Shown: in pieces, positions 2,691 to 60,889 of the stretch | Layout: each line of letters begins with the position of its first letter | Position numbering within the stretch: the stretch's first letter is position 1 | Assembly (NCBI GenBank): GCA_963855995.1 | Contig: OY979716.1 | Span: 32,661,594-32,725,593, forward strand | Direction: 5' to 3' | Origin: Muricea muricata | Taxonomy: Eukaryota; Cnidaria; Anthozoa; Malacalcyonacea; Plexauridae | Length of the DNA: 64,000 nucleotides | Translations under genes and position numbers: made by a program | Notes under the pieces: generated by a model | The model's database searches: none | What the model saw: only the letters and a program-made list of their open reading frames with translations | What the model was told of the DNA's origin: nothing

Positions 2691-2695
2691 TTATT

Positions 2696-3445
2696 ACTCT
2701 GCCTGCCGTAGGCGAGGCAGAGTTTTAAATTCGCCCTGTTTCTATTTTTTTTTATTTTCTTTCAGTGTCGCCAGTTGGCGCAGCACTCATGGGTGATACC
2801 GCTGGGCACAAGCCGCATGAGCCGACCTAAACACAGTGTTTAAACTTCTAGCGGAATATGTCAACAAAACATACATTTTAACATGTATGCTAGAACATCT
2901 GGCAAGAAGGTTTTACGTGCAAAGATTCTCATGCAAAATGTTTTAAAATGAGAAATTCCACCACGAAACTTCAACCACTACCGAGGAGCGATGTATCGCA
3001 GTGAAGTTTTGAGATCGTGTTTCCGTCATTTTCTGTTGTGTTCCTACTTTTAAGGAAATTTAGAAATTTCTACCGAAGAATCAAACGCAAATTCTACTGA
3101 AATATCTATATACAAAACACAATTTTTAACATTTAATAGTCAACAAAAAGGGACAGGAAGGTTCTTTATCAAAACATTGCTCTAGAAATGTTTTAAAGCG
3201 GCAAATTTTGATAGACTCCATCATTCCATGATTAAGGAGTGAGTCTAGGAAATGTGTTCCTAATTCTAAACATGTTGTGATTTCATCTCCTGTGTGGAGA
3301 TGCTAATATTTTGCGCAAAATGATTTATTTGCTTGTGGGATCTCATATAATTATAAAAGGTAAGAGACATTTTACATTCCAATTCTAGAAAAACATATGT
3401 TAGTCTAAAGTTCCCGACAAATTATATCGTGGAGACTTCAGGCAG
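2696..3445 (+). repeat. Dispersed repeat A1, copy 1
   Basis: This begins with a short palindrome (TACTCTGCCTGCCGTAGG with GCGAGGCAGAG). The block returns in inverse orientation at 15797-16385, ending in the equivalent CTCCGCCTCGCC/GGCAGGCGGAGTA. The copies share long stretches, for example around ATATCGTGGAGACTTC at the inner end. Copy 1 carries about 160 extra bases near 3200-3357. A TTA sits immediately outside each terminus, which would fit a 3-bp duplication of the Harbinger type, but no transposase lies inside. It is probably a non-autonomous element. Confidence 0.6.
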
Positions 3446-3493
3446 TGTGCTAAAGAATAGATTCAAGTGATGCTATCAGGTTAATATATTTAT

Positions 3494-11200: not shown

Positions 11201-11446
11201 GCAACAGCAAATGTTAGTGATAATAAAAAAAGTCACAAGAAAAAGAGAAAAGGTCCACTCAAGAAACCACCAAACAGCTACATGATGTTTGTAAAAGAAA
11301 ATTTTCAAACTGTTCAACAGCAGATGAAGGAAATGGATGGAGATATTACTTTTGACGAAGTGAACAAAGAATTAAGAAAGCAGTGGCATAGCAAATCACC
11401 TGAAATCAAAGATTCGTACAAAGTTAAAGGCTATGAGAACTTGTAA
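5265..11446 (+). CDS. RNase H-like transposase-like protein with BRCT and HMG-box domains
   Basis: Three exons join in phase: 5265-5568, 6892-8200 and 9673-11446, predicting about 1128 residues. Donors are GTAAGG and GTAAGT; acceptors are TTTTAG. Residues about 405-510 contain VYGDARTYGKQKSVLVAIG and, 80 residues on, LTGDSMFLDAI, the spaced aspartates of an RNase H-like fold. A STEGGEH motif follows near 788 in a block (SLPFHSLMRVSTEGGEH, TSRGGGHTYHDPIL) seen in abundant uncharacterised cnidarian transposon proteins. A BRCT-like domain (AGRRFVIAGSF, NNGGHVLK, KWKIVSPAFIIDAI) spans about 897-1000. An HMG box (LKKPPNSYMMFVKENF, LRKQWHSKSPEIKDSYK) ends the protein. DNA binding and repair or targeting roles are inferred. 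The reading frame is intact, unlike most neighbours. The first methionine is uncertain because exon 1 begins with a hydrophobic stretch. Confidence 0.7.
8515..8705. repeat. CpG-rich short palindromic segment within an intron
   Basis: Repeated ACTCG/CGAGT words stand out in an AT-rich intron. GTGCTCGCAACACTCG near 8541 is mirrored by CGAGTGTTGCGAGTGAAC near 8685, suggesting a MITE of about 165 bp with inverted ends. No duplication was resolved. Confidence 0.4.
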
Positions 11447-14874: not shown

Positions 14875-15345
14875 TGAATTAGATATTTGATGTGTTGATA
14901 AGGTGTCAGGTAAATATTTGGCATGTTTATAAAATGTTGGTAAGGATTTTGACTAGTTGACAAGTTTTCGAGCAGACTTTTGACATGTTGATAAGATCTG
15001 AGTTAGTCTTTTGATATGTGGACAAGCTTTGACAAGCATGTTGACAAGATGTCGGTTAGGTTTTTGGCTTGTTGACAAGATGTCAGTTAGGCTTTTGGCT
15101 TGTTGAAAAGATGTTGGTTAGGCTTTTGGCTTGTTGACAAGATGCCGGTAAGGCTTTTGGCTTGTTGACAAGATGTCGGTAAGGCTTTTCACTTGTTGAA
15201 AAGATATCAGTTAGGCTTTTGGCTTGGTGACAAGATGTCGGTTAGGCTTTTGGCTTGTTAACAAGATGTCGGCAAGGCTTTTGGCTTGTTGACAAGATGT
15301 CGGTTAGACTTTGACCTGTACATGCCCACAAGTTGTCAGTTAGAC
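14875..15345. repeat. 31-bp minisatellite
   Basis: A degenerate tandem repeat has core words GGCTTTTGGCTTGTTGACA and AGATGTCGGTTA. The best-conserved units between about 15050 and 15300 are spaced 31 bp apart. The flanks of the array (14875-15040 and 15300-15450) are more diverged copies using GACAAG, TTTTGA and GTCAG. No open frame runs through it, and it separates the two-gene unit from repeat A1. Confidence 0.8.
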
Positions 15346-15796: not shown

Positions 15797-16385
15797 TAAG
15801 TCTGAAGTCTCCACGATATAATTTGTTGGGAACTTTAGACTAACATATGTATTTCTGGAATTGGAATGTAAAATGTCTCTTACCTTTTATTTACCGTTTT
15901 AAATCATTTCTGGAGCAATTTTTTGATAAAGAACCTTCCTGTCCCTTTTTGTTGACTATTACATGTTAAAAATTGTGTTTTGTAAATAGATATTTCAGTA
16001 GAATTTGCGTTTGATTCTTGTGTAGAAATTTCTAAATTTCCTTAAAAGTAGGAATACAACAGAAAATGACGGAAGCACGCTCTCATCGCTCCTCGGTAAA
16101 GTTTCGCGGTGGAATTTGTCGTTTTAAAACATTTTGCATGAGAATTTTTGCACGTAAAACCTTCTTGCGGTTTAGATGTTCTAGCATACATGTTAAAATG
16201 CGTGTTTTGTTGACATATTCCGCTGGAAATTGAGTTTAAAGGACGTGTTTAGGTCGGCTCACGCGGCTTGTGCCCAGCGGTATCACCCATGAGCGGCGGC
16301 ACCGACTTCTGACACCGAAAAAAAAAAAACAGAAACGGGGCCATTTTAAAACTCCGCCTCGCCTACGGCAGGCGGAGTAATTATA
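15797..16385 (-). repeat. Dispersed repeat A1, copy 2 (inverse)
   Basis: This is the reverse complement of 2696-3445, starting at the GAAGTCTCCACGATATAA edge and ending at the CCGCCTCGCC/GGCAGGCGGAG palindrome. It lacks the extra 160 bp of copy 1. It is followed outward by TTA. Confidence 0.65.
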
Positions 16386-16804
16386 TATCTAAAATAATGA
16401 GTATCTTTGGATGTAATGGCCAGAACCTTTTCTAACTTCGCACGAGTGTAGTGATTAGGTAAACGCACACTACTGTTCACACTATGCTGCTGCCATGGAG
16501 ATTGTTTGGATACAAATGTCTTGTATTTGAAAAACAAAAATTTCTTATTTCTCTCCTATTAAACGATATTTACTTCACTGCACATAATACAATTGTTGTA
16601 TGTACATTTAGATCGCATTTATTGAATTTAAATTATTATACAGTGTAAAGGAAAAATGAAAATTAAGATATTTATTTTACAGTTTAAAAGCTTTTATTCC
16701 AAAACCGTTTATGTTGCAACAACACAATAGGAATAGTAATGTGAAGCTACCAAATTGTTATAGTCATGCAAAGTGTGAAAAATGTCTGCCTGCTATTTAC
16801 AGAG

Positions 16805-17130
16805 ATATTCACCATTTGATAAATGTAATTTATTATTTGTGAGTAGATGACGTCAGAAACACCTAATTTGCATGTTTCAAAAAACCTTAATATCTCTAAA
16901 ACGAAACAAGATATCGAGAAACTGAAAATGCCATTAAGGCTCGTATGGAAATGTTCTTCTGTTGTGTTTAAAATTGGATCAAAGATTTTTTCGTTGCAGG
17001 GGCACTTTAAAAAGGAATTAGTTGGCCACAACAGAATTAAGTGAATATATCCCACCCCCAATGAACTCTCTAGTTACAGCCCTGCCTGGCCTTGTGCCCA
17101 TTTTCGTTTCGGCAGGCAGATGAACGCCTT
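16805..17130 (-). repeat. Dispersed repeat A2, uninterrupted copy
   Basis: This contains, in reverse, the blocks found at 3779-4198 and 4552-4637: GACGTCA, TTTTTTCGTTGCAG, CCTTTTTAAAGTG, CCAATGAACTCTCTAG and CCTGCCTGGCCTTGTGCC. Here CTAATTCC and GTTGCAG are adjacent, whereas in the other locus they lie at opposite ends. Copies are therefore circularly permuted. There is no coding potential. Confidence 0.6.
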
Positions 17131-17189
17131 AGCAGGCGTCTTGTTGTAATATTGCAAATCTTGGAAACATGAGCGTTCCTCTACACGCG

Positions 17190-23916: not shown

Positions 23917-26528
23917 TCAAAATTTTCCAAAAAACCTTAACCTGCATTCGTTTTTTCCAACAAATTCTTTTGCAATTGTTTTGAGGCAAATGGAATCCGT
24001 TCTTGCTTTGTGCATATTGAGCATCAAAAGGTTATTGTACCACTTTTCGGTAATCGCGCTTCTTAAATATGTTTTGAGAGATCTTTGCACGGAAAACGAT
24101 CTTTCAGCAGATGCGGTTGTTAATGGAGCCAGCAAGTATATATGCATTAAACGAAGAACGTTAGGAAGTAAATGAGTCCCATTCTGCCCATAAGTTAAAA
24201 TTGACACCACAGTTTCCATCGAAGTCACACGTTTAATTTCAGGGAATGTTTGTTTGGTAACAGTTTCAAGTAATTTTAATTCCGACTGCAGAGAATCGAA
24301 GTTCACATCCTTCTCGTATGACTTCTGAAAGTTCTCGCTCAATTCGAAACTAAGACCATTAGCAGCACTTATGACTGCACTTTCAAATTGCTGAAGTGGT
24401 GCATACGACTCTTCGCGAAAACGACGATTAAGTTCGACAAGGCAAGCGTCAATGGCCACGAAACACTGCACACGGTGCATATCTTAGGCAGAGTTAAATT
24501 GGTGTTCGGCAGCGGAACCATTATCTAGCCGTCGAGGCACTTTTTTATGACGTGGAAGAACCGGTTCTTCTAGTTCTATTATAGGCATGCAGGAGGCCAA
24601 ATCTCTTGTCTTGCGGAAAAAAGAAGAGTAGTCATCTCTTTGTCATTGCAAAGCATATCTTTCAGCGCTTTCACTCCATTCATTACTGTTTGCGCTAAGA
24701 TTCCCTTTGTTTGGATGGTGCATGCCAATTGTTCACAAACGCTGAAAACATTCATTGCAAAACGCAGGCCAAGAAATGTGGCAAACTGCGTCATCTTTTT
24801 GGCTATGCCTGCTGCCTTGTCGCGGCTGTCTCTCGTTGACCCGGTTTCTGAAATGTTCCTTAGGGTGTCATATATACCCTGATAATTGTCCAAGACCGCT
24901 TTTATCGCGCAAAGAAGATGGAGATTTTCTGCCCCAACACAGTTTTCGTTGCTGGCCAGACATTCTTTGGCAATACTCTCATACACAGACATACGGACTG
25001 GGGACTGCCTGATGAAAACGGCCAACTCCTGCACAAGACTAAAGACATCACCGATGAGCTTGCTCTCGTTGGCGCAGGCTTTCAAAACCAAATCCAGGCG
25101 GTGGTTTGCACAGTGGATTCTATAAGCTACGGGGTTTTACGCCTGCAATCTTACTCCAACACCACTTAAATGGCCGCTCATCGTTGATGCCCCATCGTAA
25201 GCTTGCCATCTGCAATCATCAAGCATCAGGTTACATCTTAACAGTATATCTTTGAGAGATGCTGCTATCGTTTCGGCGTCCGGTTTTTTGATCAAATACA
25301 TCCCAATGAAATCTTCATTTATCTCCAAATCTGGAAGAGAAACCCATCGGAGAATGCACGTCAGTTGTTCTTTATTACTTATATCACGAGATTCATCAGC
25401 GAGAAGAGAAAATAGTCCAGAATTATCTTTTATGTCCTTCAAAATACCACGCAAAAGGGTATTGCCCATCATTTCAATTAGTTCATTGATTATCGGCGGG
25501 CTAAGGTACTGTCCATTTCTGACCCAGTCATTCAATTCTGGAACATCTTCTGACCTTGTCTTTAGCAGTTGAATTAGGTTGCTATTCAAAGATTCATGCC
25601 CACGGAGCGGAAGGCCCTGCCGTGCTAAGTATTTCAGACTGCTAAGCTGCTTAAGGAAAAGTCGTCGATGAAGATCTTGTTCACTACGGTACTGGTTGTC
25701 AAGTTGAGCGCCAGTATCATTCTTCTCATGAACAATGTGTGCAAGTTTTTCAACAGCTTCTTTATGGCAATGAGAATTTTGATGTTTTTCCAGCTTTTCA
25801 TGGCACTTTTTCCAGTTGCAAAACTCTCCTGAAGAAAATGCTTTCTCGGTATGATAACTAAAAGTGATTAAGTTTCTTTCCATGGCTTTCTTGCAGTGAA
25901 AACAAGCTATAGTACCACGTGTCAGGCAGTAGGTCATCCAAGAAAACTTTGAAAAGACAGAAAATGGGCAGTGCCTAAATTGGCCATCAGTGCGTAGCTG
26001 CTTTATGGATGTTTTCTTCAATTCATCTGAGGTGGGATGGCAGGGAAAACCTTGTGTACAACATGCGAAGTCACAGTTTGCAGGTGAAATCTTATTTTCC
26101 TGGACATATGTGCTTGGTAGCAGATCATCTAACTCAGTTGTATTTGAAGACGTTGGACTTACTTCAAAATCATGCATTTGAGATGAAGAAGTAGCAGGCA
26201 TTTCACGCATTTGATCAACTGGGAAAATTTGATTCTGTTGCTCTCTACCAGAATTTAGGCCAGGGGTTTGCAATCTTGATGAAACATCGAAGTGATCTGA
26301 GCTAGCTTCATTGCGAGGTTGACCGGAAACGTTGATACCTTCATCCGTAAGGGAGCATGGCAATATTTCCTGTCCCAAATTGTCGAGTGGAGATGTGTCA
26401 TCAATGTTGGATGAATTATGTGACGCACTTGTAGTAGTAAAACCAAAGCTACTGAGTTTTTGAGTGCCAGAAGCTGCTTCATAGAGTAAATTTTCACGTA
26501 CTTTTTTACATCGTTCTTTCCGTGGCAT
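23917..26528 (-). pseudogene. hAT transposase, TTF/MYM-type zinc finger, decayed
   Basis: Reads from MPRKERCKKVRENLLYEA (start 26528). A TTF-type finger follows (TRGTIACFHCKKAMERN, GEFCNWKKCHEKL, NSHCHKEAVEK). The catalytic core has LLADESRDISNKEQLTC and WQAYDGASTMSGHLSGVG, then IHCANHRLDLVLKACA. The C-terminal hAT dimerisation segment (LLAPLTTASAERSFSVQRSL) ends at 23917. An in-frame TAA lies at 25137, a frameshift near 24610 (just past CSARQ/RKTRDLAS), and a TAA near 24480. These make the copy inactive, although the three open blocks still cover nearly the whole family. This type resembles zinc finger MYM-type protein 1-like genes that descend from hAT. Single exon. Confidence 0.88.
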
Positions 26529-26622
26529 GTCAGTCTTTGGTTAATGTCAAACGCTGTCTGAAATCTTTTAAAAATGTGCACAGTAAATAGAAAAATATAA
26601 ATTAGTCTTTAAAAAAGTGCAC

Positions 26623-32839: not shown

Positions 32840-33900
32840 CATCAAGTCCGAACAATGTAGTTACAACAATATTGTCGAGGCATCAAAACGCCACTCATGC
32901 TTTCCTCTTGGATTGCAATTATGTGAATTACCTTCCTTAAACTGGGTTCACCGTATTGCCAGTATCCGTTAGCCCGACGCCTAATGCCTAACAATACTGT
33001 TCTGACAACATTTAACATCTTTGTTTTATCAGTATTGTTGAGCCTTGTTCCAACAACATGGAACAGCATTGTTTAACCATCAAGTCTGAACAATATTTTT
33101 ACAACAATATCGTCGAGGCATGATAAAACAACAATGCCTAACAATATTGTTCTGACAACATTTAACATCGTTGTTTTATCAGTATTGTTAGGGTTAGGGT
33201 TAGGGTTAGGGTTAAAACAGCATTGTTAAGCCTTGCTCCAACAGCATCGAACAGCATTGTGCATCCATCAAGTCCAAACAATATTGTTACAACAATATTG
33301 TTGAGGCACGATAAAACAACAATGCCTAACAATATTGTTCTGACAACATTTAACATCGTTGTTCTATCAGTATTGTTAAGCCCTTGTTCCAACAACCTGG
33401 AACAGCATTGTTCATCCATCAAGTCCGAACAAGATTGTTACAACAATATTGTTCAACAATGTTGTTTCAACAGTACTCTTCAACCATGATAACAACATTG
33501 TTCCGGTGTTGTTCAACCATCATGCGCCAACAACCTGTTCAATTTTTGGTCGTGTACACGCGCAAAAATCGACCAGGTTAATGCAATACTGTTCGCTGAA
33601 CAACGGTGTAACAATATTCTTATCAGGGATGAACAACACTTGTTAAAATGACAATATTGATGAGTATTTTTTCAGCAACATTGTTCGTAGTTGGTGAAAC
33701 GACAATAGTTGTTGCAGTATTGTGAGAACCATGGCCGACAGCACTTGATTAATCAAGCTTGTTAACTGCTGTCAGAACGATGTTGTTCAGCGCTGTTGAG
33801 TCATCAGGCATCAACAATACTGTCAGGCCAGGCCAGAACAATGTTGATGAAAGAACAAGTTGTTTCATGTTGTTGAAACAACCGTGAACAGTAGCCCACT
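32840..33900. repeat. Palindrome-rich tandem repeat with a short telomere-like tract
   Basis: Three copies of a unit of about 150-170 bp start near 32987, 33147 and 33327. Each has CCTAACAATATTGTTCTGAC, GCATTGTTCA and GTTACAACAATATTGTTGA. The middle copy contains four TTAGGG units at 33187-33212. Beyond 33480 the repeats degenerate into AACAATRTTGTT words. Many small frames here are artefacts. Confidence 0.8.
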
Positions 33901-35090: not shown

Positions 35091-35144
35091 TAAAAGTATG
35101 GAATGCCATAGCTGTCTTAGGTGGTAACTTTTCGTTACGTTATA

Positions 35145-38050
35145 CGCTTTTGCATTATATGCGGTGCTTTCAACATTATATGCGGTGCTTTTTACATTAT
35201 ATGCGGTGCTTTTAACATTATATGCGGTGCTTTTTTCTTTATATATGGTGCTTTTTACATTATATTAGTCCGGGAGGCAGAGGGAATTTTACTTACTTTC
35301 TCGAGGGACTAATTCTATTGTTGATAATATTGTAGTTTAGATGTCCCTTAATATGAATTCGAATGTTGTTTCGGCAGATTTTTCTTGAGTAATGTGTTAA
35401 ACATGGTTTTCTGCTTGACTTCAAAACATTCGAAAAGGCGCCATTTTGTTTCTAATTTTAGTACAAGAAACGAGCCCACGACATTTTCGATCAGCGGGCC
35501 ACGGAATAACTTCATGTATGCACATTAATACGCAAAATATTCATGCTTTCGCATGGGTAGTCTTAGCGTTAATGCTCAAAACATTTGATACAATTCATAG
35601 TTATTCTGATTCATGAAATACATATAATTATTTATCTTTTTGTTGTTTTAAAAAATTAAAATTTTTTTGAATGACTCAAACAACTGTGAGGCGCAAATAT
35701 CCAGGCAAATGAATCATTGTTACACAGTCATGCCTATGCTCATACGTGACCGGTCTAAGGGTGCCCACCAGCTGCTGCAATTAAAATATGGTATGCTCAA
35801 TATATTATCATCACCTAAAATGATGTATTCTTTTTGATAACCCCCCCTTGTTACAGATTTATTTTGGTTTTATATTGGAAGCAAGAAATCAAGTAGCGGT
35901 GGAGGTCATCTGCTGTTTGTTTAATTTTAATGAACGTTCTTCAGTTTCTTTAAGTATTCTTGTTTTAACTTACTTCAGTACAAAGTATAAATGATTTTCC
36001 ATTACCACCTTTTTTCCCCTTGCATGAAAATTAGTGAACCGTTTTTGAATCGGCCCTCCCCCAATAATTAAAGAAGATAATAACATGAAGAGTTCCTTCC
36101 TTGTCCGCCGTGGTCATATCCAAACAACATTATTCAATTAACATTACTTCCCTTATTTTAACCGTGGTGCTGTTGAAAGAAAAATTACCAAACGAACAGG
36201 TTCCCTGAGTGGTCTGGTGCGTAGCAATCGAACTGTTGGTAGTTATATTATGGGCTGTCCATTAAGGGAAATAACACCACCGTAAACCAAGCAGCATATA
36301 CATTTTACCAGCATTCATTGCGGACATTGAGCAAAAACGACTGAAAAAAATGCCAAGGAAAATATCCCAGGATATAAAACTTTAACAACACAAAGAAAAT
36401 AACCTACTTGTAATAGTTCAAACACAAGTAGAAGAACTTCCTCCAAGACAGGTTGAAATACGAGGTGAAGCCGAGTATTTTTCAATTAAGTTGGCGGATG
36501 TACATTTTCAGAATGCATTGTGGTCGGAAATCATTTCATATAGGAGTACGAGCCAGGGGGGCTGGGAGGGCTGCAGCCCCCCCCCCAAAGAAAAATTGGA
36601 AACTGCCAGTTTTTCGGGGAATTTATTTCCAAATTTCGGAGAATTTGGACGCGGAGACACTGGCCATGGAGGAATTCGGGAAAGAAATGATAGCCCCCCC
36701 CCCCCCAGTTGACAGAGATCCCGTACGCCTATGTCCTTTTACAAAGCACATTGAACGTCTGTTGAAGGACAAGCACAAGAGGTTCTTTAAGCATCACCAC
36801 GGCAGAAAAAAAGAAGAATAATCATCTTCAGACATCACCACAGATGGAAGAAAGATGCTGATATAATTTTCTTCTCTATACATCATCAGGCAGGAACTTG
36901 AAAGGTGAACTTTAGACATCGCCACATTAGGAAATGTAAGGAACTTTTCATTTAGGTTATGGTAGCAGAAGGGAGGAACTGATCAGTTAAGTTAGCATAT
37001 AATTTTCTAGTTGATACATCACCAGAAAGGGGGAGGGACTGTTCATAGACTTTCACAGTGGGTGAGGATAAAAAACTTGAGGATACCATATTTTAATTGC
37101 ACCAACCGGTGCCCCCACCCACCTCGCCTTATGACCGGTCACATATGAGCATAGGCATGGCTGCGTGACAATGGTTCGTCTGGCTATTTGCGCTTCACAG
37201 TTGTTTGAGTCATTCAAAAAATTTTTAATTTTTTAAAACAACAAAAAGATAAATAATTATATGTATTTCATGAATCAGAATAACTATGAATTGTATCAAA
37301 TGTTTTGAGCATTAACGCTAAGACTACCCATGCGAAAGCATGAATATTTTGCGTATTAATGTGCTTACATGAAGTTATTCCGTGGCCCGCTGATTGAAAA
37401 TGTCGTGGGCTCGTTTCTTGTACTAAAATTAGAAACAAAATGGTGCCTTTTCGAATGTTTTGAAGTCAAGCAGAAAACCATGTTTAACACATCACTCAAG
37501 AAAAATCTGCCGAAACAACATTCGAATTCATATTAAGGGACATTTAAACTACAATATTATCAACAATAGAATTAGTCCCTCGAGAAAGTAAGTGTGCATA
37601 CATTTTAGACCCTCTGCCTCCCTGACTATATGCGATGCTTTTAACATTATATGCTGTGCTTTTTTCTTTATATGCTGTGCTTTTTACATTATATGCGGTG
37701 CTTTCAACATTATATGCGGTGCTTTTTACTTTATATGCGGTGCTTTTCACATTACATGCTGTGCTATTCACATTATCTGCGGTGCTTTCAACATATGCGG
37801 TGCTTTTGACATTATATACAGTGCTTTTACATTATATGCTGTGCTTTTAACATTATATGCTGTGCTTTTTTCTTTATATGCTGTGCTTTTTACATTCATG
37901 TGGTGCTTTTGACATTATATGCTGTGCTATTCCATTATATGCGGTGATTTTGACATTATATGCGGTGCTTTTGCAATAGATGCTGTGCTTTTAACATTAT
38001 ATGCTGTGCTTTTTACATTATATGCGGTGCTTCATTACATGCAATGTTCC
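35145..38050. repeat. Left subterminal array of a 21-bp repeat, split by a MITE
   Basis: Units built on GCGGTGCTTTT plus ACATTATAT repeat every 21 bp. There are about six at 35145-35265 and about twenty at 37629-38050, originally continuous. Because 21 is a multiple of three, all frames stay open and produce repetitive pseudo-proteins (ICGAF or YAVLF repeats). The inverse array lies at 53530-53970. Some units have CTGTGC for CGGTGC. Confidence 0.92.
35266..37628. mobile_element. Harbinger-like long-arm non-autonomous element (2.36 kb), family M1
   Basis: The ends TAGTCCGGGAGGCAGAGG and CCTCTGCCTCCCTGACTA are followed inward by inverted arms of about 530 bp (to about 35795 and from about 37085; shared words include CTCGAGGGACTAATTC and CATATGAGCATAGGCATG). 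A TAT is duplicated on both sides, and its removal restores the 21-bp repeat register. The unique core 35800-37085 holds a further GC-tract insert near 36546-36735 (CCCCCCCCCC tracts, GGAGTACG / CGTACGCC ends). No transposase is present. Same family as 11564-12252. Confidence 0.85.
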
Positions 38051-39139
38051 ATTATGTGCAAACTTTGTGATGTGCAATGTACGTTGTTGCCACCAAAATA
38101 CAAAATGGCACCAAATATGTGAGTGGAAAGTGAATTTTACGTCTGTGAAAGTTTAATAAAGTATATTGCCAATGGCGTCTGTAACAGATATGTCAAATAT
38201 TTTGGAAAAGATGAGTTTAGGTTACGTCAGCCAACGATTTATAGATGAAAATATAACTCCAGATATTGTATGCATGCTCTCCTTGTCCGAACTGAATCGG
38301 TTGGGCTTACGTAATCACAGCAAAATCATGGCAGTGCGAATCGAGTGTATAAAGTATTCAGGTGGGCAGGTGTTAAAAAGCCAAGACCTAAACGCACATG
38401 TCAAGTATGAAATACCATGGGAAATGTTGGAAGGTTTTCTGGATGAAGTTTTTCTTATTAGCGAAATCGCTACGATGATGTCCGTGTCTGAAAGTACAAT
38501 ATATCGACGAATGAGATGTTATGGTCTAAGCAAACTTACCTTTTCTGACGTTACTGAAGAACAGTTAGATGCCCACGTGGCTGAAATTGCAAAAGATTTT
38601 CCGTTTTGTGGTGAAAAAATGTTCAAGCAAATTCTGGAGCAGAAAGGCATAAGAGTGCAATGAATGAGACTACGAGACTCCATACACCGGGTAGATGCTG
38701 AAGGTGTTGAAAACAGAAGGAGGGAAGATTACATGGACGAGTCTATGACGTTAAAGGGCCTAATCATCTACGGCACGTAGACACCAATCCCCAGCTGGTA
38801 AGGTGGAATTTCATAATTGTGGGAGGAATCGACGGTTTTAGCCGGTTACCAGTTATGTTTGTCTGTACTAACAACAACAAATCCGAGACATTGCTGTCAT
38901 GCTTTTTGGGCGCCATTTCTGAATATGGTTTACCTAGCAGGGTTAGGACAGACAAAGGCTTGGAAAATGTCCTCATTGCAGACTTAATGATTGAGAAAAG
39001 AGGAAGTGGTCGTGGAAGCATCATTACTGGTCCAAGTACACACAACCAAAGAATCGAAAGACTTTGGCGAGACGTTTTTCAAGGTGTTTTGTATGGAACG
39101 CAATGTGTCCAAAAATTATTTAGCGTTTTTTATTTGAAA

Positions 39140-39560
39140 TCATGAGTAAATGTGTCATTATATGTAAATAATTAGCGAACGACGCGTTATTATATCAAAT
39201 AATGAATAACTTGTTCTTGCCACGATATGATATAATGTTGTTTGTCATTAACATGATATGATATCATGACGCTGCGACAAAATCATTATTTGATATCATG
39301 CTACTTGTATTACTTATAAGTATTATATCATATAATATCATATACTTATAAGTATTATATCATATAAAAATCCCATCAGTTCATGGTATGATAACATGCT
39401 GTTTGTTGTTTTCATTATATCATATAATGACAGCTCCTTGAGTTCATAATATGATATCATGCTGTTTGTTATTTTCATGACATCATATAATGTAAAGCAG
39501 TGAAAAGTCATTATATCAAATCATGAAATGCGCATCATACGCCATGTGTGCAAAAATCAA
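39140..39560. repeat. Subterminal palindrome cluster of the nested element (left)
   Basis: At least seven copies of ATGATATCAT- or TATATCATATAATG-type palindromes recur every 50-70 bp. They are mirrored in the right arm at 47050-47370. Clustered subterminal palindromes often are transposase binding sites; that role is inferred. Confidence 0.65.
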
Positions 39561-39709
39561 TTAACAATGTTACATCCTGTTGCAATACTTCCGGCGCGTT
39601 GACTTCCTCTTTCCCGCTCTTGCGTCAGTGAGCTCAGTGTGCGAGACTTTGAAGGCGCCATAATAACAGTCAGTCGACTTTATCAAAGCGAGGAATAAGT
39701 AATTTCAAA

Positions 39710-44266
<4,557 letters not shown>

Positions 44267-44499
44267 ACGTTTTTCCAGTTTTGTAAAGATAATTACAGAG
44301 CAATAGAAGGAAATTAGAATGTACACATGAGTTACATGCCCGGTAGTCACTGCGTTTAGTTATAAGTAAAATGGAATAAGTTCTTAATTGGTGAAAACAT
44401 CAAGTAAGGCAAAAACGGCTAAACAAGTCATTAAATGCCTTTTTGTTTGACTTAGATTCATGTATTTGATTTGTACCAAAAAAAACCCAGGCTAAAAAC

Positions 44500-44996
44500 T
44501 GTAATCGACGCCTGTCATAAGGAAACATCGAGTTAGACTTGAGTTCGTGTTCGACTTCGTGTCAGAAGCACGCAAAAAATGTATTTTTATACTGGTATAT
44601 TTCAAATAAAATCATTCTGAAATGTCTTTTCTTAATTTTTGTTTATTCCTCCCTCTGCAAATAAGTAAAATCCATTTAGAGTGCAATATACATACATATG
44701 TGTCTATATACCAAAGTATATGGCTCGCTGTGATCCGACCACAGGATTTTAGTTTAAACATTCAGATGTTCACAATCGCCGTTCGATTATTGTACGCCCG
44801 ACAAACTGTAAAACGTTATTAAAAACCTCCATTATTGGTATGTCCGCTAATGGGTCTGTAAAAGATTTTAATAGTGATGCTTACAACCTCGATGTCTAGC
44901 TAGAAGTGCCAATAATTCCTTGCCGTAAAGCCCTAAATCCTAGAGTACTTATTTACATAATTGACTAATATCTTACCTACTTAAACATATATTACA
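44500..44996 (-). mobile_element. LTR of a gypsy-like retroelement (497 bp)
   Basis: On the plus strand it begins TGTAATCGACG and ends TATATTACA, giving 6-bp TGTAAT/ATTACA inverted termini. Immediately outside, 44997-45010 reads TCTCCCTTTTTTTC, the complement of a polypurine tract, so this is the 3' LTR of an element on the minus strand. Coding sequence of the matching kind follows at 45164. The 5' LTR and most of the body are missing. Confidence 0.7.
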
Positions 44997-45163
44997 TCTC
45001 CCTTTTTTTCAAAATTTTATTAAGATACTTAACCTATCATCTCGACACAATACTATATGCAAATTGCAACATGCATACACTGATAGAACCTAATTAACGT
45101 CTTTGATTACTATATTCATTATAATACAGTTTTGTAAGTTCTCACATACTGCTGTTTTACAGT

Positions 45164-45755
45164 TTACTGTCCATATCTCTCAGGCTTGCGAATAACCCTT
45201 CCTGATCGAGTTCTATAACATGCATCAGTTGCTGTATTCTTTTGTTCCTGTTCATTATTGGTTTGGCGCATAGACACTTCTGATTGTCCTGGTTCCTCTC
45301 CTACTTGCGCTTCTGATACACGTCCTAATTCAGGTTCCGTTGTTGGCCGGATGTGCCGTCGGTTTCTACGTAGCCAATTACCGTTTTCAGTTTCAACCAC
45401 ATATGCTTGTGGTTCCTGGCATTTCCTCCGTATCGTGCCTTGTTGCCATTCTTTAGTTCTGTGATCTTGAATCCAGACTTCTTGTTCCGGTACTAGGCCT
45501 TCAGTACGGAGGGCGTGGTTGTTGTGTGCAAATGCAAACTCTTTCACTAATTTCTTGACACGTGGTAGCAATACATAATGTAAGCAAAACATGTCTGTTT
45601 CATTGTTTATGTCAAGTAACCCGTTATCCTCTAAATCCTTACGTTTTGGACTGAGGACCTGGGCAATATTGACATTCAAATCTCTGTTAAATCGTTCTAC
45701 CCGTTGGTTATGGACAGAGCTGCCAACAATTACTGATCTCCTTTCAGTCCCCTAT
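45164..45755 (-). pseudogene. In-frame chimera: IS3-like transposase fragment fused to a gypsy-type pol 3' end
   Basis: Reading leftward, RRSVIVGSSVHNQRVERFNR (about 45755-45690, the third acidic motif of an IS3-like DDE core) continues through LLDINNETDMFCLHYVLLPR and FAFAHNNHALRTEG. The style then switches to a gypsy integrase C-terminus: EQEVWIQDHRTKEWQQGTIR, NWLRRNRRHIRPT and a final TRSGRVIRKPERYGQ before the stop. The polypurine tract and LTR follow. The upstream transposase domains are absent (stops and a MITE follow at 45740-45934). The fragment is the expected minus-strand transposase of the nested element, damaged by a retroelement. Confidence 0.7.
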
Positions 45756-45789
45756 CAGTCAAGAATTTCCTGATTGGCTTTTTTACAGC

Positions 45790-45934
45790 AACCGATATAA
45801 ATCCCCACATCCCCAGGGTCAGTGCTAGTGGGGTGTTAACCGGGGATTGTGCCCTTATTGGTGAACTAGGTCATAAGCAAAACAACAGAGTGCTATACCC
45901 CTGCCTTAGGTCTGCAGGGATTTATATCGACTGG
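45790..45934. mobile_element. Small MITE with GATATAAATCC ends
   Basis: ACCGATATAAATCCC at the left is mirrored by GGGATTTATATCGACTGG at the right, about 145 bp apart. A related end (AGGATTTATATTGACTGG) occurs near 51832-51849. The duplication is unclear. Confidence 0.6.
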
Positions 45935-46523
45935 CGTATTACCCCCCCCCTATTTGGGGTTTTTAACATTTATCATGTCAAAGATTGAATCTTTATTCTG
46001 ATACATGCAATAAAGTATTTTCTGACAACAATACACAGCTCATCACATATTGCTTTATGGTGTACATAATACCAACCCACTCTCTTACCCGAAGCAGTTT
46101 GCACCTCGTAGAAGGTCATGTGTGACTGACTTGTTCAAATGCTTACTGTTTTCCCACTTAACGAATGTGAATGGTAGTGTTTTTTTTGAAACAGCGAAGT
46201 GCTTCTTTTGTTTTTCAAATGTAAAGATGGTCAAGGTGTTCAAGTTGGTCTCTGTAACCTAACTCTAACACACACCCCCCCCTCCCTCCCTAACCATATG
46301 TTTTCAAAATTTCACATGGAATCAGTCATTCTGATTGGAGAAAGCCAAAACCAGTACTAATCCTTATCAACCGACCAATTAAAACTAAGTGGTGCAACTC
46401 ACCAGTCTTACCCAAGCCCCAACAGATAGCACTGTTAGTAATTTTTTTGACAGGCAAAGTAAACACAATACATAGCATTTATTTTGTATATTGATTTTAC
46501 AAAAGCATTCAAGCCTATTGTGC
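45935..46523. other. Unassigned interior of the nested element
   Basis: Between the MITE and the right arm. No exon of the expected transposase N-terminus is recognisable; C-runs at 45942-45951 and 46272-46280. Confidence 0.4.
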
Positions 46524-46679
46524 GGCAGCATTGTTTGATTCAACGCTCTGTTGGCGCCATTTCGTTCCAGCGTGCTGTTGTCCACGGCCTTTATGCAAAA
46601 TAAGTAAATAGATATTGTGCTGTTGGGCTGTACGTAGATTAGGGATATTTGCATATACAGCTGTATATGTACCTACCTG

Positions 46680-46862
46680 ATTAATGATATTAGGCGCTGA
46701 AGCTGTGGTCGATGTTGCCGTGATTGTCGTTGCTGTGCCGGTGCCAGTGCTTGTGCTTGTATTCGTCCGCGACAGCGGCGTGCTGTTTAAAACGTTCCTA
46801 ACTGCCCCTTCTACGGCTCTAGCAAGAGCCTCTTCGAATGGTAGTCCGGTACTGCTAGACAT
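46680..46862 (-). CDS. Second copy of the transposon first exon, in the right inverted repeat
   Basis: Reads MSSSTGLPFEEALARAVEGA then VRNVLNSTPLSRTNTSTSTG and ends at a GTAGGT donor. It differs from the left copy at 39710 by a few residues and a small deletion in the Thr/Gly run. The second-exon start (AVDNSTLERNGANRALNQTM) also falls within the repeat and is cut off at 46524. It points inward towards the transposase remnant, so both genes of the element would start from identical promoters and exons. Confidence 0.7.
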
Positions 46863-47877
46863 TTTGAAATTACTTATTCCTCGCTTTGATAAAGTCGACC
46901 GACTGTTATTATGGCGCCTTCAAAGTCTCGCACACTGAGCTCACTGACGCAAGAGCAGGAAAGAGAAAGTCAACCCACCGGAAGTATTGCAACAGGATGT
47001 AACATTGTTAATTGATTTTTGCACACATGGCGTATGACGCGCATTTCATGATTTGATATAATGACTTTTCGCTGCTTTACATTATATGATATCATGAAAA
47101 TAACAAACAACATGATATCATATCATGAACTCAAGGAGCTGTCATTATATGATATAATGAAAACAACAAACAGCATGTTATCATACCATGAACTGATGGG
47201 ATTTTTATATGATATAATACTTATAACAAGTAGCATGATATCAAATAATGATTTTGTCGCAGCGTCATGATATCATATGTTAATGACAAACAACATTATA
47301 TCATATCGTGACAAGAACAAGTTATTCATTATTTGATATAATAACGCGTCGTTCGCTAATTATTTACATATAATGACACATTTACTCATGATTTCAAATA
47401 AAAAACGCAAAATAATTTTTGGACACATTGCGTTCCATAGTTTTGAGTTGCTACTACCACTTGTTCTATCTCTTAGAAGACCAACTAGTTTTGGATCCAT
47501 TCGATGACAAACATATTGCTGCATTACACTACACATACATGGACGAAATAAACAGTAAACTTCGAATTTGGCAAAAGGCATGGTCAAATCACCGAATGCG
47601 TACCACCCGGTCTAGTCCGTATAGATTATGGATTGCTGGTCAAGCTCAGAATCCTACTGGCCTGGATCAGTCAATAGCGGATTGGCAAAATTTTGGAGTT
47701 GAAGGTAATGTTGACCTCGAAGATGATCTCGAAGAAGAAGGCCGACCAATATTTTCTCCACCAGTGCTGGAACTTAGTGAAAACTGCAGATCTGAACTTG
47801 CATCTATTGTTTCACAAGAAAATAATTACAGAGTAGAGCACTATATGTTGGCACTAGAAATCATACAAAGGAACACA

Positions 47878-48840
47878 TAAATTTAACATGAGGAACTTCG
47901 TTCTAAATAACGGGTATAAAAACTTTAATATGAACAATAATCACTACGTTATATTCTATACGTAAATCTATTTTGTGACTACCAAGAACACACCTCCTTG
48001 CAAACTTTCTAATGTTATCATTTAACTCATTATATCATTCACTATGATTGGTAATGAAAGAAATAATGAAAAGAAAATTCTTGTCTTGGTAGTCACTAAC
48101 AGATTCCTGCAGTATAATGAATAGGGTTGATACCTGGCCTAAAGATAACAAATTGCAAGCGTAGCGTCTGCTCTATACAACATGTACTCAAACGTGACTA
48201 AAATGTACACTACAGAATGTCCCATCATAAAGTCTGAATAATTGATCATCAGATGGTAAAAAGGAAAAGATAAATTTAACATGTGGAACTTCATTTTAAA
48301 TAACAAATATAAAAACTTTAATATGAACAATACAAATCACTACGTTATATTCTACAGGTAAATCTATTTTGCGACTACCAAGAACACACCACTTTGGAAA
48401 CTTTCCATTTTAAGACCATTTTCCACTTCAGGCATGTTGTAGCGATATGTACCATACTTCATTCTTTCGCCCTTGAGCAGTCAAGCAGAACTAATGATAT
48501 GGACACAATAGTATGCGCTACAGTATGTTTCGCCACGATACGGTTGAAGTAGAAAACTGGCTTTAATGTTAGTATTTACCTCAATATATCATTCACTATG
48601 ACTGGTAATGAAAGAAATAATGAAAAGAAAGTTCATGTATTGGTAGTCACTAACAGATTCCTGCCTCAATGAATAAGGTTGATACCTGGCTTAAAGATAA
48701 CAAATTGCGAGCGAAGTGTGTGTGCTCTATACAACATATACTGTACTCAAACGTGACCAAAATGTGCACTAGAGAATGCCTCGTCATAAAGACTGAATAA
48801 TTGATCATCAGATGGTAAAGGCATGGTAGTATGTGACGCA
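47878..48840. repeat. Tandem direct duplication between the two outer genes
   Basis: The block 47880-48250 (AATTTAACATGAGGAACTTC, ACTACCAAGAACACACC, GGTAGTCACTAACAGATTCC, TTGATCATCAGATGGTAAA) recurs at 48271-48820 with about 160 extra bases. It includes the last codons of the HECT gene, so a truncated second copy of that 3' end lies at about 48139-48250. Confidence 0.8.
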
Positions 48841-50384
48841 TACAGTAACATCATCACATTTGTACATGTGTTTGCCATTGGAAGGAACGACGTTGTCACT
48901 TCGAAGAATGTTATAGAAGGTTGAAGTTTGAAACCCAATAATGGTTCTTCGTCACAGCAAGTAGCATACTGTAATATGGAACCAAACGTGACATCACCCC
49001 TTCTTCCAGCTAGAATAAACAGCAAATTTCATTTTTGGTAATTAACAATGCACGCATATTGTTATTAACATTATTACTTATACTGGGTTTCGAAAAAAAA
49101 TGTTGCATAAATAAGGAGTCCGTAATTATTGTACATTTTACACCAATCTGGAAGGTGAAACTATTAATATCAATGTACTCCCAAAAGTATGTTACTTTAA
49201 ATTCATTATTGATTCCAAGGTCACTAATTATATTTCAAAACATGATGCTCTACTATTATTATTGTGTGACACATGACAATATATATTTTGTACATAATAG
49301 TACATATTTTGTGTTTCTTGCCATTGGCAACTACAACACTAGCATACAACATTTTGGGGGCAGAACTCAACAGCTTAAAAACAACACAATTCCTATACAT
49401 TTTGAACAAATGATATTTTTTTATGCATACAGACTACACTTTTATTACAAATCAGACATAACATATAAATCCTTCTTATTGACGAAAATTGTTAAATTTC
49501 GGTCCATGACACTCAATGAATATTGTTCTTAAGCAGTAAAGGATACAATTATACCACTATATGATATGGACACTTCATGGTTATTTCTTCTACTAAATAT
49601 TTAATCTCATCAGCAACTTGTCGCATATACTGGCTCAGCAACGTATACACAGTTGTTTCATAAATCCTTCTATTCGAGCCAACTGGACTGAAGTGTGGTG
49701 TCAACAAAGTGTTTAGTTTTCTCATCGTAAGGAAAGATGTCAGATTGGCCCTGAAAATTTCCCTTAGAAATGGCATTTCATCACAAATCTAAAAAATGTG
49801 GTTCACATTGCACATATTGGCCCACATGTACGTACTCTACAGCACATCTGCATAAGAATAAAACAATCCACTTGGCAGTCAAATATCAAAATTTGATTGA
49901 AAATCTTAGAAAATGTCACACCATTGGTACATTGATACTTGAATTATTCCACATGCTGCTAATGTTAGAATTATCCCACATATTGCTACTATTTGGAATA
50001 ACCTTCGCTATAACCCAGCCCATATGCAAAGTCAGCAGTAAGCTGTAATTGGGGAGGGGGGTTATATATATTCACATATATAACACTGCGAAATATAAAA
50101 TTCGCTACCTGGAATATACCAACTTTTTCCAAGCCTTCTCTTAAGTTGATAAGTGATTGCAACATGTTATCAGGGTCAAAGACTGCACCAATTACATTTT
50201 CAGGCAAAAATTGTGGGAGTTTGCCATTTTGCAATACACTCAAGCCTACAAGAGAAGTAAAAAGGAGAGAAATGAATAACTGGCTTCTATAATCAATTGT
50301 TTGGTTTCTTTACATAAACAGAAAGAACTAGTAAATTTAATTAGAAGAAAATTAACATGGTTGGGAATGTTGCAACTGCTAAGG

Positions 50385-50620
50385 AACCACAGGTAGCCAA
50401 GCAGTTAGTGCATTGCAGCTTTCAGCCATAAGAAAGCCAAACTGAGTCTGCTCTCCACTTTAATCATTTTAAGTGTGCTGGGTTTCTCATAGTTGATCAA
50501 CCTGTGCTTTGAGGGTTTTTATCCAGTTGCTCCAATTTTCTTCCCTCTCTAAACCAGCAAATATATGACACATAGTTGTGCACTTCCTGTGTCAATGACT
50601 TTAAATAAATCATACTTGTT
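50385..50620. mobile_element. Possible tRNA-derived SINE
   Basis: GGTAGCCAAGCAGTTAGTGC resembles a tRNA A-box region, and TGAGGGTTTTTATCCAGTTG followed by TTTTCTTCCCTC recalls cnidarian SINE bodies. The B box is poor and the tail is not clean. It lies in an intron of the outer HECT gene. Confidence 0.35.
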
Positions 50621-51107
50621 CCACAATCAAACTTGTTGTTCAGAAATTTGTTTTTTTTTAAATTTCATCAGCAATACTTACTATAATGTGCTCTAATTTA
50701 TTCTTTTAGTATAGCACTATGTGGTTTTACTCATCAAATGAAACATTAATTATATTACTACAGAAAGACATTAAAGAGGCCCTGTTAGGGGTTTTAGGTA
50801 TAAGGTATATTTACCCAAAGTATTTTAGTTACAAAGTATAAATAACAATGGACTTTTGGGTATAAAGTATAAGTGATCACTGGCGTTATACTTTTAGGTA
50901 TAACAAAAACTGACCACAAGACATTTTGTGTCAGCTATTCGAGGCATTTGGGAGCATTTATTTGTCAATAGTTACCAATACTGATCGCTTCTAATACCTC
51001 GACAGCCTCAACCTGAATTTGCAGAGTTGAAGTTCCACGGTGGTATTTGTTAGAATATAAAATCTGCTAAAAGTAAGTATAGTAGTAGAGACATCATGTT
51101 GCGAATC

Positions 51108-51599
51108 CAGGGTTGGTAGGCCCTCGCGCATGCTTGGAGCCAAATAGTTACCCAAAAAAAAACCAAAATCTACCAAAAGAGGCCAAATTTATCGCAATTT
51201 TCGGACCTCTCATGCAAAAAAAACCCGCTCTTAGCTTCTAATTGTCTTTTTCGATTTTTCCTATTGGCTGGTATACCAGCATTACAATTGGTTAAAAGCA
51301 CAACTAATTTATGTCATGAATACTAAACGTCCTCATGAATATTAAATGTCCTAATGAATACTAAATGATCCTAATGAATACTAAATGTATTTGATATCAC
51401 AATTATTATACCTACATTATTATGATGATTAAACATCTATAATCAAACTAAAATCGAAAAATCTTTCCAAAAATTAGTATGAAGTAAGAAGAGGCCAAAA
51501 AGTAGCCAAAAGGCCAAACTTTTTTTTCGAGGCCAAGCGAGAAAAAAAGAAGCCAAAATCGAGTTATTTGGCCTCTAATAGGCCAAACTACCAACCCTG
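51108..51599. mobile_element. hAT MITE (492 bp), TSD TGCGAATC
   Basis: The ends CAGGGTTGGTAGGCC and GGCCAAACTACCAACCCTG are near inverses. A perfect 8-bp duplication TGCGAATC flanks it (51100-51107, 51600-51607). Inside are GAGGCCAAA repeats on both arms. CAGGGTTGG is the same end as the MITE at 4199. Confidence 0.93.
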
Positions 51600-53529
51600 T
51601 GCGAATCCCCCGCTATGTCTGTCAAATAGCATAAATCGAGTAATGATAACATAAGCAATACTTCATGTATTACTGAGTATGATCGTGTGGACACGTGACT
51701 TCCTCCATGTTGTTCTTTCTGTCTGTCTTTGTATTTCATATTTTAAACATGTAGAACATTTTATAATTAAATCCTTTTACATCGAAGAGAATGCGACCGA
51801 TTATTTTAACAGTGTCCCAGGGCTGGGGGTGCGAGGATTTATATTGACTGGTGCATAATTCTCCTAAGATGTTGGGAAGTGCAGTAATACAAATATTTGA
51901 ACACAAGCAAGGAAAATATTATTAGTACTATAATAATAATACAACCTCTCCATAAAACTGAACATCCAACGTTAGAAATGGATTTTCTAACCCATTTATC
52001 TGCTCCATCCCAGTGTCCAGAATATGGTAGCGACCATCAATATGTAATTAGTTGATCCCTCTGGACAGGTATCTACACTTTCAATCTCCAAACTTCTTCC
52101 TTGAACAACTTTTGACTGCATTAATCGTATAACCTCTTCAGTACTAGTAATGTTATTTTCCTTACACATCTTGACCATATCCTCAATAATGCTATTGACA
52201 TCAATATCAATGATTGCTTCATTGGCATCAACTACAGAAACTACCTGTATGTTATCATCCAATTTTTGTGGTTCTAAAATGGTGACATGCTGATTCTCTA
52301 CTGGTAGATTATTTTGGGAAATAATTGGAACAGTGATATCATAAACTTGGTCATTGTTTGTATCACCCAATGGCAAAGTAGCATCTGTAATACCAAAGTC
52401 ATTACTAATATTAGAATGACTTAAGTGGCCATGGTTAATGTTTATATCTTCTCCATTGTGTATGTTTTCATTATTGCTGGTAGCATTGTCATCTGACTCA
52501 TCTGATTCGTCATTTAGACCAGCACTGCAACTATACAAGTGACCCCTCAACTCACACATAAAAAACTCCTTTTGGCAGCCATTGCAGGTTTGTTTCACTT
52601 TAACTGTATTTTGAGTTTGGATGGACTTGGTTGACAAATTATGCTGAATTGGTCGAATGTATATCTTTGATTGAGCTCCCAAATTTGCTTTTAATTCTTT
52701 CACTGACCACTGACAAGAGATCAATGATAACTGTCTGCAATTTGACAGGCATTGAAGCAGATCGAACCCCCCGCCGTCGCGAAGCTGCGGGAACCCTAAC
52801 GTCTCGTTTTCCTCATTAAGATTAGCAGATAAAATTTTCTCAGCCACTTGCTCTTCACTGTCATTAAGGTGCAGTTTGATTTTCTTCAAACCTAATCCAG
52901 CATTATGAAGTATCTGCTTTGTACTTGCATTAGGAATTTTGGATTGATTCCTATCAGCTAAACAGAAAAACTGAGCAGTCCAAGTTTTATTGGCACCTAC
53001 CGTTGGTTTTCTCTTTCTAAACAAATTTCTAGAGTAACGAGGATTGAACAATCTTGCACGCTCCATTGCTACTGAAGCAGCAGAAACAACGTCAGAAGAA
53101 CTGGCAAGAGATACCGAAGACGACGCTACAGCATCTGAGCTTGAAGGTGCCACAGCATTTGTACTTGATGTACTCTCATTCTCGGTATAAATATCTTTCT
53201 TCTTCCTGCAAATACTACGAAGACGAACACGATCTCCTATAGTTGTTACACCTAGTCGAGTAAGCTCCGCATCAGTCATGGCAACTATTAACTCTGGTTT
53301 GATTCATTCGTCGTTAAAATGTGGCAGTAATGTCGAAAGGCCAGCTTCTTCGAGTATTTTATCCATTTTGACCGAATATATATACTTCTTGACCATTTTG
53401 ACCGAATATATATATTCTTCAATACCGTTGATTGCAACTACAGGTGAACAGTTACAGATAACGAAAGGACAAATTGTATTTCTAGGGAGAGGGGGGGAGA
53501 TGTGGAAGGGGTTGCACAATATATGGTTG

Positions 53530-53970
53530 CACAGGATATAATGAAAAAGCACCGCATGTAATGTGAAAAGCACCGCATAAAAAGAAAAAAGCACAGCATA
53601 TAATGTCAAAAGCACCGCATATAATGTCAAAAGCACCGCATATGATGCAAAAGCACCGCATATGTTGAAAGCACCGCATGTAATGTGAAAAGCACAGCAT
53701 ATAAAGAAAAAAGCACAGCATATAATGTTAAAAGCACAGCATATAATGTAAAAGCACCGCATATAATGTCAAAAACACCGCATATAATGTGAATAGCACC
53801 GCATGTAATGTCAAAAGCACCGCATATAATGTAAAAAGCACAGCATATAAAGAAAAAAGCACCACATATAATGTAAAAAGCACCGCATATAATGTTGAAA
53901 GCACCGCATATAATGTAAAAAGCACCGCATATAATGTTGAAAGCACCGCATATAATGCAAAAGCGTATAA
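53530..53970. repeat. Right subterminal array of the 21-bp repeat
   Basis: About twenty units containing AAAAGCACCGCATATAATGT, in inverse orientation to the left array. It abuts the 70-bp unique terminus and ends about 165 bp upstream of the HECT start codon, so it probably overlaps the promoter. Confidence 0.92.
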
Positions 53971-54019
53971 CGTAACGAAAAGTTACCACCTAAGACAGCT
54001 ATGGCATTCCATATAAAAG

Positions 54020-57090: not shown

Positions 57091-57804
57091 CCATTTGACA
57101 GTCCAAGTTTCGCGTATTTTTTGAAGGCAAATAGGAACAATAACACATTAACTCGAGACACTGTCTAAAAATTCAACTTCTGAAGTACAAATATGCTTAT
57201 AAACTCGAATACTAATGACAATAACTATTTCAAGGCACATCTATAAATAGTTTTGAAGGATATTCACTAATTGCAGGCTTACGAAGAACAACGTAGGACG
57301 TCGACATCAGTTTATGGTTTGAAATAGTGTCTACTTGTCACGCAATTGTGTGCATTTCTGGTATCTTCTGTATCTATTTAGTGAACCCAGGATAATGGAT
57401 TTGTAGAACAATTATTACATTTTTCCCGGGATTAAAGAAGAAAAAGAAAAAAGAAAACATTAACTCAAGCTTTACCTTTGTCGTGACCTTACGTTGTTCA
57501 TTGTATAATAAATGTTTACACAGAATTCCGAATCTGTGTTCCAAAATGAAAAGCTATATGTGCGAACTGAAATGACTAAAATTAAAAGAATTATTTTTCA
57601 TATCATGAACAAGAAACTTCGAATACTCCTTGCCAAGCAAAAATGTAAACCGATCTTTGTTTACAATAGCAGAGGTTAGAAATATTCCATTGTTAGTAAC
57701 AGTGGGAAAGGTTAACATTCAAAGCCACAACTGAACTTTGATCGTGGGAAAATCCAGGAAGCAGAGAGAGAGAGAGAGCGCGAACACGTTTCAGGAATGT
57801 TGTA

Positions 57805-60125: not shown

Positions 60126-60889
60126 GTAATAGCACCGTCAGATCCCACTGCGTTCAAACACAATATATAAACACATTATACGTGCAACGAACATGTTTGT
60201 TCCGAATAAGTAGTTTGTTTCATTGCAATACTCATTCCACGGTGTCATGTCTCTCATCGCTGTTTTGCTCTCATTTTGGCATGTAGGATTTTTACAACAA
60301 CAGATAGAGCTTTTCAGTCACCATTTTTGCCTTGCAGGAATTTTTTTTCGAAATCATTCACCCCTCCTCCTTTCCGTCCGTGTAAGGTCCGTCCCTTATT
60401 TTAATGTGCGAATAACTGTGTAAACATTTTTCCACACAATGAACAACGTAACGTCACGACAAAGGTCAAGCTCGATTTAATGTTTTTTCTTATAAGAAGC
60501 AAAAATAATTCCGAGAGTTCCTTTCTAATGTTCATCAAACCCTAACAGGATGAAAATGTAATAATTGTTCCACAAATCTATCAGCCAGTGTTCACTAATT
60601 AAGTAACAAAAGTACAGAAGATACCAAAAATGCAAGCAATTGCATGACAAGTAGAAAGTATTTCAAACCATAAACTGATGTCCTATTTTGTTCTTCGCAA
60701 AACTGCATTTGGTTAATATCCTTCAAAATTATCTATAGATGGGCCTTGAAATTGTTATTATCATTTTTATTCGAGTTTATCAAGATATTTGTACATTAGA
60801 AGTCGAATTATTAGTAAGTATCTCGAGTTAATGTGTTATTGTACCTATTTGCCTTCAGAAAACACACGAAATTTGTGCTGTCAAATGGC

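Follow-up and report, generated by a model that had tools for sequence, protein, structure and literature searches.

Transposons of the IS3EU/GingerRoot group have TA..TA termini, usually 6-bp duplications, and an integrase-like DDE core without the upstream HHCC motif, as set out in the available portion of PMC10045372. Fungal TET+ IS3EU elements, in the excerpted text of PMC12730594, have TAYGG..CCRTA ends, 6-bp duplications, and an alpha-kinase gene lying opposite to the transposase. The present analysis concerns a 64,000-nucleotide stretch of the Muricea muricata genome (contig OY979716.1; hereafter the window, in which all positions are counted) and an element at 35097-54013 (no strand assigned), referred to as the outer element. 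This element is tentatively interpreted as a decayed copy from an IS3EU-superfamily lineage in which a SAM-HTH-DDE transposase is accompanied by a convergent SAM-C2HC-HECT ubiquitin ligase, the ligase being recruited through the SAM domains. The anatomy of the element, taken by itself, is held with high confidence.

Ends and genes of the outer element

The outer element has TATGGAA..TTCCATA ends within a 169-bp inverted repeat (96% identity between the 35097 and 54013 ends in a repeat search of the window), and it is flanked by the 6-bp duplication TAAAAG at 35091-35096 and 54014-54019. The initial annotation described one element with perfect ends and a 6-bp duplication; the inverted ends and the duplication are indeed present, but the interval also holds nested elements at 39092-47439 and 35266-37628. 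Therefore, a single intact 18.9-kb element was dropped as an explanation, and subtraction of both inserts and their duplications leaves an outer element of about 8197 bp. The count of TATGGAA was likewise dropped as evidence by itself, since 11 occurrences in the window against 13.7 expected are not significant; significance rests on inverted TATGGAA..TTCCATA pairs with long repeats and duplications, not on motif count. The TATGG..CCATA termini at 35097/54013 and 39092/47439 fit the fungal TAYGG..CCRTA form, and TAAAAG and GTTTTG, the latter beside the larger insert, both have the 6-bp length of IS3EU duplications. Because of its ends, its 6-bp duplication, and its DDE core, the outer element fits the IS3EU superfamily.

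The transposase gene lies on the forward strand and is disrupted three times, by a stop, a frameshift, and a nested element. Its N-terminal part at 38172-38660 (+), placed by a family-profile gene map, contains the SAM domain (about 38190-38366) and an HTH (PF13384, E 0.0035). The stretch 38661-38729 (+) follows with the in-frame stop (38661-38663) and the frameshift (between about 38714 and 38729). The first part of the DDE (rva_4) core at 38714-39091 (+) keeps all three triad residues, the two Asp and the Glu, in HVDTN, RTDKG, and RIERLW, and the C-terminal part continues past the nested insertion at 47440-47880 (+), as located by Pfam and the gene map. The core is of the integrase type (PF24764, 4.4e-46), and fold searches match integrase, IstA, and TnsB folds. 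Among 7085 candidates, 1914 transposases were found at E 0.001; the best 120 of the 1914 were examined further, and 26 of those 120 form an alignment (A1) in which D204 and D261 are invariant and E296 is present in at least 90%.

The HECT gene at 48750-53366 (-) was assembled from the pieces 53307-53366, 52035-53303, 51940-52035, 50094-50252, 49612-49788, and 48753-49013. An in-frame stop at 53304-53306 (-) falls inside the SAM domain of the protein according to the profile map, and the gene is also frameshifted near 52035. The HECT domain is matched by Pfam at 3.5e-5, with positions 441-480 of the HECT profile not found in the outer copy in the gene map. Both the HECT profile and the HECT fold were found, and the NTC motif with the catalytic Cys is present in 12/12 full-length rows of the HECT alignment (A2), in the outer copy, and in the copy of the larger nested element. 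It is this Cys that acts in catalysis in HECT ligases. By profile, fold, and NTC motif, the protein of the outer element is a HECT-type ligase and is predicted to transfer ubiquitin. The 3' end of the gene has undergone a local direct duplication (48010-48260 and 48564-48819, 87%).

Two convergent genes had been annotated in the element. Their convergent order and their DDE and HECT matches stand, whereas neither gene is intact. Since both genes are broken, the outer copy cannot function as it stands; it is a decayed fossil.

Relatives and a nested element with the same gene pair

At least 71 HECT proteins were found among 7995 scored candidates, and the named ones come from corals, octocorals, a hydrozoan, an acorn worm, and bivalves, i.e. 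from Cnidaria, Mollusca, and Hemichordata. Two relatives, P0001 and P0121, are nearly identical to the outer copy (96% each) and have longer open frames. When contig sizes were compared for 118/120 transposases and 69/71 HECT proteins, three sizes in the range of 10 kb to 5 Mb (30226, 468268, and 1466850) were common to both sets, against 0.003 expected from a crude simulation; on the 30226-base contig there would be two transposases together with one HECT protein. Matches between short contigs (1544 and 2293) and a chromosome-size match (62650966, Pinctada imbricata in both) were left out of this count. A pattern search for related loci gave 59 matches in viral contigs and 11 in genome contigs, with no relative among either.

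A second IS3EU-type element of 8348 bp is nested at 39092-47439 (no strand assigned) within the outer transposase coding sequence, and when its flanks are joined, the frame again runs on into the C-terminal part. It has TATGGAA..TTCCATA ends, long inverted repeats at 39092-40057 (966 bp) and 46524-47439 (916 bp) that align at 92.7% over 966 columns, and GTTTTG duplicated at its flanks (39086-39091 and 47440-47445). Its HECT exons with the NTC motif lie at 43331-44263 (+), with upstream exons at about 39653-43041 modelled by eye; PF00632 matches the last exon at 8.0e-8 and the composite at 8.7e-14. On the opposite strand, at 45167-45751 (-), is the C-terminal half of a DDE domain (PF24764, 5.7e-23) in which the Glu is present and both Asp are absent, so that the HECT gene and the DDE half are convergent as in the outer element. 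The inner element is a distant relative in which the gene pair recurs, as its transposase and the outer one share 29% identity over 112 columns.

The initial annotation proposed that the two genes be sought together in relatives. Both protein families are kept, and the inner element repeats the convergent HECT and DDE pair, which supports their pairing. The transposase and the HECT ligase, each bearing a SAM domain, are a genuine gene pair, conserved as far as seen. It is distinctly improbable that the HECT gene was captured from a host and is carried as a passenger without a role in transposition. Transposons do capture genes, and HECT and SAM are common animal domains; however, at least 71 relatives share one architecture across three phyla, the NTC motif is kept throughout the full-length rows, and a divergent nested element has its own HECT gene in the same order.

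The long repeats of the inner element encode a nearly identical open reading frame start at both ends, at 39653-40093 (+) and 46518-46919 (-), and of the two, the one on the transposase side may have taken the place of the 5' half that the inner transposase gene lacks. In addition, 31/63-bp repeats whose cores are palindromic and ATGATATCAT-like occur at the ends of this element (39186-39530 and 47045-47345).

SAM domains of the two proteins

Both N-termini had been annotated as SAM-like, with one peptide quoted from each. The peptides are present at 38277-38330 (+) and 53220-53279 (-), although MTDAELTRLG belongs to the middle of the SAM domain of the HECT protein, which starts at 53366; the SAM-like character of both N-termini is upheld by family profiles, and the predicted models are consistent with it. 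The predicted transposase model has five helices at residues 4-62 (block pLDDT, a model confidence score, 77-89), and the model of the HECT SAM is also five-helix; the fold searches covered other domains, and the VIA-align structure lists span residues 190-377 of the transposase and 91-659 of the HECT model, with the SAM parts outside. In the 26 aligned transposases, SAM_1 was matched in 10/26 and SAM_2 in 8/26 at E<=0.1, with HTH_23 in 24/26; P0001 taken singly has no SAM profile match. HECT relatives matched SAM_1 in 7/7 at E<=0.1, 4/7 of them above the Pfam cut-off.

When profiles of the two SAM families were compared with PDB sequences, the transposase profile (A3) matched tankyrase-1 best (31.4 bits, 1.2e-6) and the HECT profile (A4) matched Bicaudal-C best (39.6 bits). 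The families were also scored against each other, after 19/120 transposases and 21/71 HECT proteins with N-termini that were too short had been dropped. The transposase profile matched all of the 50 HECT SAMs (median 40.7 bits, range 27.3-51.2), and the HECT profile matched all of the 101 transposase SAMs (median 37.8 bits, range 25.8-49.5); alignment of the two profiles gave 1.8e-19 with hhalign and 3.9e-19 in a second profile-profile run. No SAM in the PDB is as close to the transposase SAM as the HECT SAM is, since the typical cross-score of its profile exceeds the 31.4 bits of tankyrase-1. Judged by these profile comparisons, the two SAM families are mutually homologous, and because their first domains are related the two proteins may work together.

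The basic surface of the end helix and its role are familiar from other SAM domains. At the start of helix 5, the HECT SAMs have G in 50/50, R in 49/50, and R in 48/50 sequences, and the transposase SAMs have an acidic stretch in the mid-loop region, with E in 87/101 and D in 96/101. Since both the basic end helix and the acidic ITPD region are conserved, the alignments suggest that the HECT end helix could dock on the transposase mid-loop. A complex of the two proteins through their SAM domains, as proposed in the initial annotation, is plausible and would link the ligase to the transposase. Related sequences need not bind each other, and repeat arrays at both ends of the element could seat many transposase copies; a transposase SAM may thus serve only its own self-assembly at the ends, its likeness to the HECT SAM reflecting common ancestry without contact. 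This is quite unlikely, and the complementary look of the acidic and basic surfaces argues weakly against it.

Repeat arrays and a possible mechanism

Tandem 21-bp units were found at both ends of the outer element by Tandem Repeats Finder, about 25 on the left and 21 on the right. The left array is split by the 2.36-kb insert into a first part at 35148-35265 (+, 5.6 units) and a second part at 37627-38040 (+, 20.0 units), and the right array occupies 53529-53962 (-, 21.0 units). Two HECT relatives, P0191 and P0175, begin with 7-residue tandem repeats, equal to 21 bp, upstream of the conserved part. Their best lag identities are 0.75 at lag 14 and 0.65 at lag 7, respectively, against a maximum of 0.24 over 191 shuffled proteins. 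The P0191 unit scored 102 against the window array (control mean 41.6, with 7/300 permuted controls as high), a likeness between the two units that is only suggestive at the sequence level; the P0175 unit showed no likeness to the array. P0173 and P0180 have internal repeats of other periods.

In the preferred reading of SAM-linked recruitment, the HTH of the transposase would bind the end arrays, and the ligase would be held on the transposase-coated ends by SAM-SAM contacts. The ligase might then ubiquitylate the transposase, so that the complex is remodelled or released once strand transfer has taken place; alternatively, nearby host chromatin and silencing proteins could be its targets. 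A length of 21 bp is about two turns of DNA, and such spacing would seat the proteins on one DNA face. In a more elaborate form, which is unlikely, a filament of both proteins, joined through their SAM domains, would form along the 21-bp arrays, with all transposase copies facing one side and the ligase entering as one of its components; the ends would thus carry a self-assembling ubiquitylation platform.

Several observations weigh against SAM-linked recruitment. Two of the conserved basic residues of the usual SAM end-helix surface are missing from the transposase SAMs, which have M/I in 95/101 at the first R position and mixed residues at the second. The SAM pieces of the window itself have no Pfam SAM match at E<=1, and the transposase profile reaches only 4.8 bits (E 1.9) on the HECT SAM of the window. 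Searched singly against the PDB, a transposase SAM sequence matched a Rab-family protein first (0.061), with tankyrase at E 1.5 and no SAM above chance, and the HECT SAMs are as close to Bicaudal-C as they are to the transposase SAMs. The relatives include many more transposases than the at least 71 HECT proteins obtained from the 7995 candidates scored, and the shared-contig evidence consists of equal sizes, adjacency itself not being seen. Finally, Pfam found no SAM domain in the composite, partly hand-modelled HECT protein of the inner element. Therefore, the SAM link is not universal among HECT-carrying elements.

This last point also favours a different arrangement, in which the HECT gene is dedicated to the element but works apart from the transposase, as a soluble ligase that targets silencing factors of the host for degradation and uses its SAM domain for its own oligomers only. 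The HECT SAMs keep the full polymer-type end-helix motif and resemble self-polymerising SAMs, and the fungal IS3EU elements have accessory enzymes of other kinds (alpha-kinase and TET/JBP) in the text available from PMC12730594. Such a separate ligase is somewhat unlikely, as it would leave the homologous SAM on the transposase unexplained, and recruitment through the SAM domains remains the preferred, if tentative, reading.

Other features of the window

The 2.36-kb insert at 35266-37628 (no strand assigned) has TAGTC..GACTA ends, inverted repeats of about 560 bp (90.7%), and the 3-bp duplication TAT; a Pfam search of two of its open reading frames gave no match. Elsewhere, a transposon remnant lies at 23920-26540 (-; Dimer_Tnp_hAT 3.3e-6, DUF4371 2.3e-20), and an open reading frame of 617 aa at 9593-11443 (+) has BRCT (8.2e-7) and HMG-box (9.1e-7) matches. 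Scattered inverted repeats, 82-97% alike, connect 2693-4915 with 15802-17153, and an inverted repeat pair (76%) is found at 57091-57523 and 60416-60888. Tandem arrays with 62-bp and 188-bp units are located at 14917-15319 and 33030-33378, respectively.

Comparison with known systems

Few DNA transposons are known to carry their own protein-modification enzyme. In the lineage described here, which spans Cnidaria, Mollusca, and Hemichordata, transposase and ubiquitin ligase appear to be coupled by way of their related SAM domains, and HECT also occurs in a distant relative of the element within this window. This would explain some unnamed invertebrate HECT and integrase-core proteins as transposon genes, and it opens the testable question of how transposons use the host ubiquitin system at the transposition site. 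Literature searches that paired HECT with IS3EU, or HECT with SAM domain, DNA transposon, and transposase, found no paper in the library searched, and a description that is unpublished or confined to Repbase is possible; in a search for sterile alpha motif with transposase, none of the matches listed has 'sterile alpha motif'.

The SAM domains of tankyrase, Bicaudal-C, ANKS6, and SHANK3 polymerise. They are like those of the element in profile and apparently, by the predicted models, in five-helix fold; however, they are not in transposons, and the transposase SAMs miss part of the end-helix motif. In RAG1/Transib a RING ubiquitin ligase is tied to a DDE recombinase within one protein, whereas the ligase of the outer element is of the HECT type and is a separate protein. 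With the HECT ligases AREL1, UBE3A, Smurf1, and UBR5 the protein shares the HECT fold and the TC motif, but their N-terminal architecture differs and the HECT of the outer element is transposon-encoded.

The TA..TA termini, the 6-bp duplication, and the integrase-like DDE core lacking an upstream HHCC motif are common to the outer element and IS3EU/GingerRoot, while PMC10045372 contains 'HECT' and 'ubiquitin' 0 times and its available portion mentions neither a transposase SAM nor a HECT gene. There is also a parallel in organisation with the fungal TET+ IS3EU elements, which share 6-bp duplications, TAYGG..CCRTA-type ends, and an accessory gene on the opposite strand; in the excerpted text of PMC12730594 ('hect' 0 times) these accessory genes are alpha-kinase and TET/JBP dioxygenase, and in the outer element the accessory gene is HECT instead.
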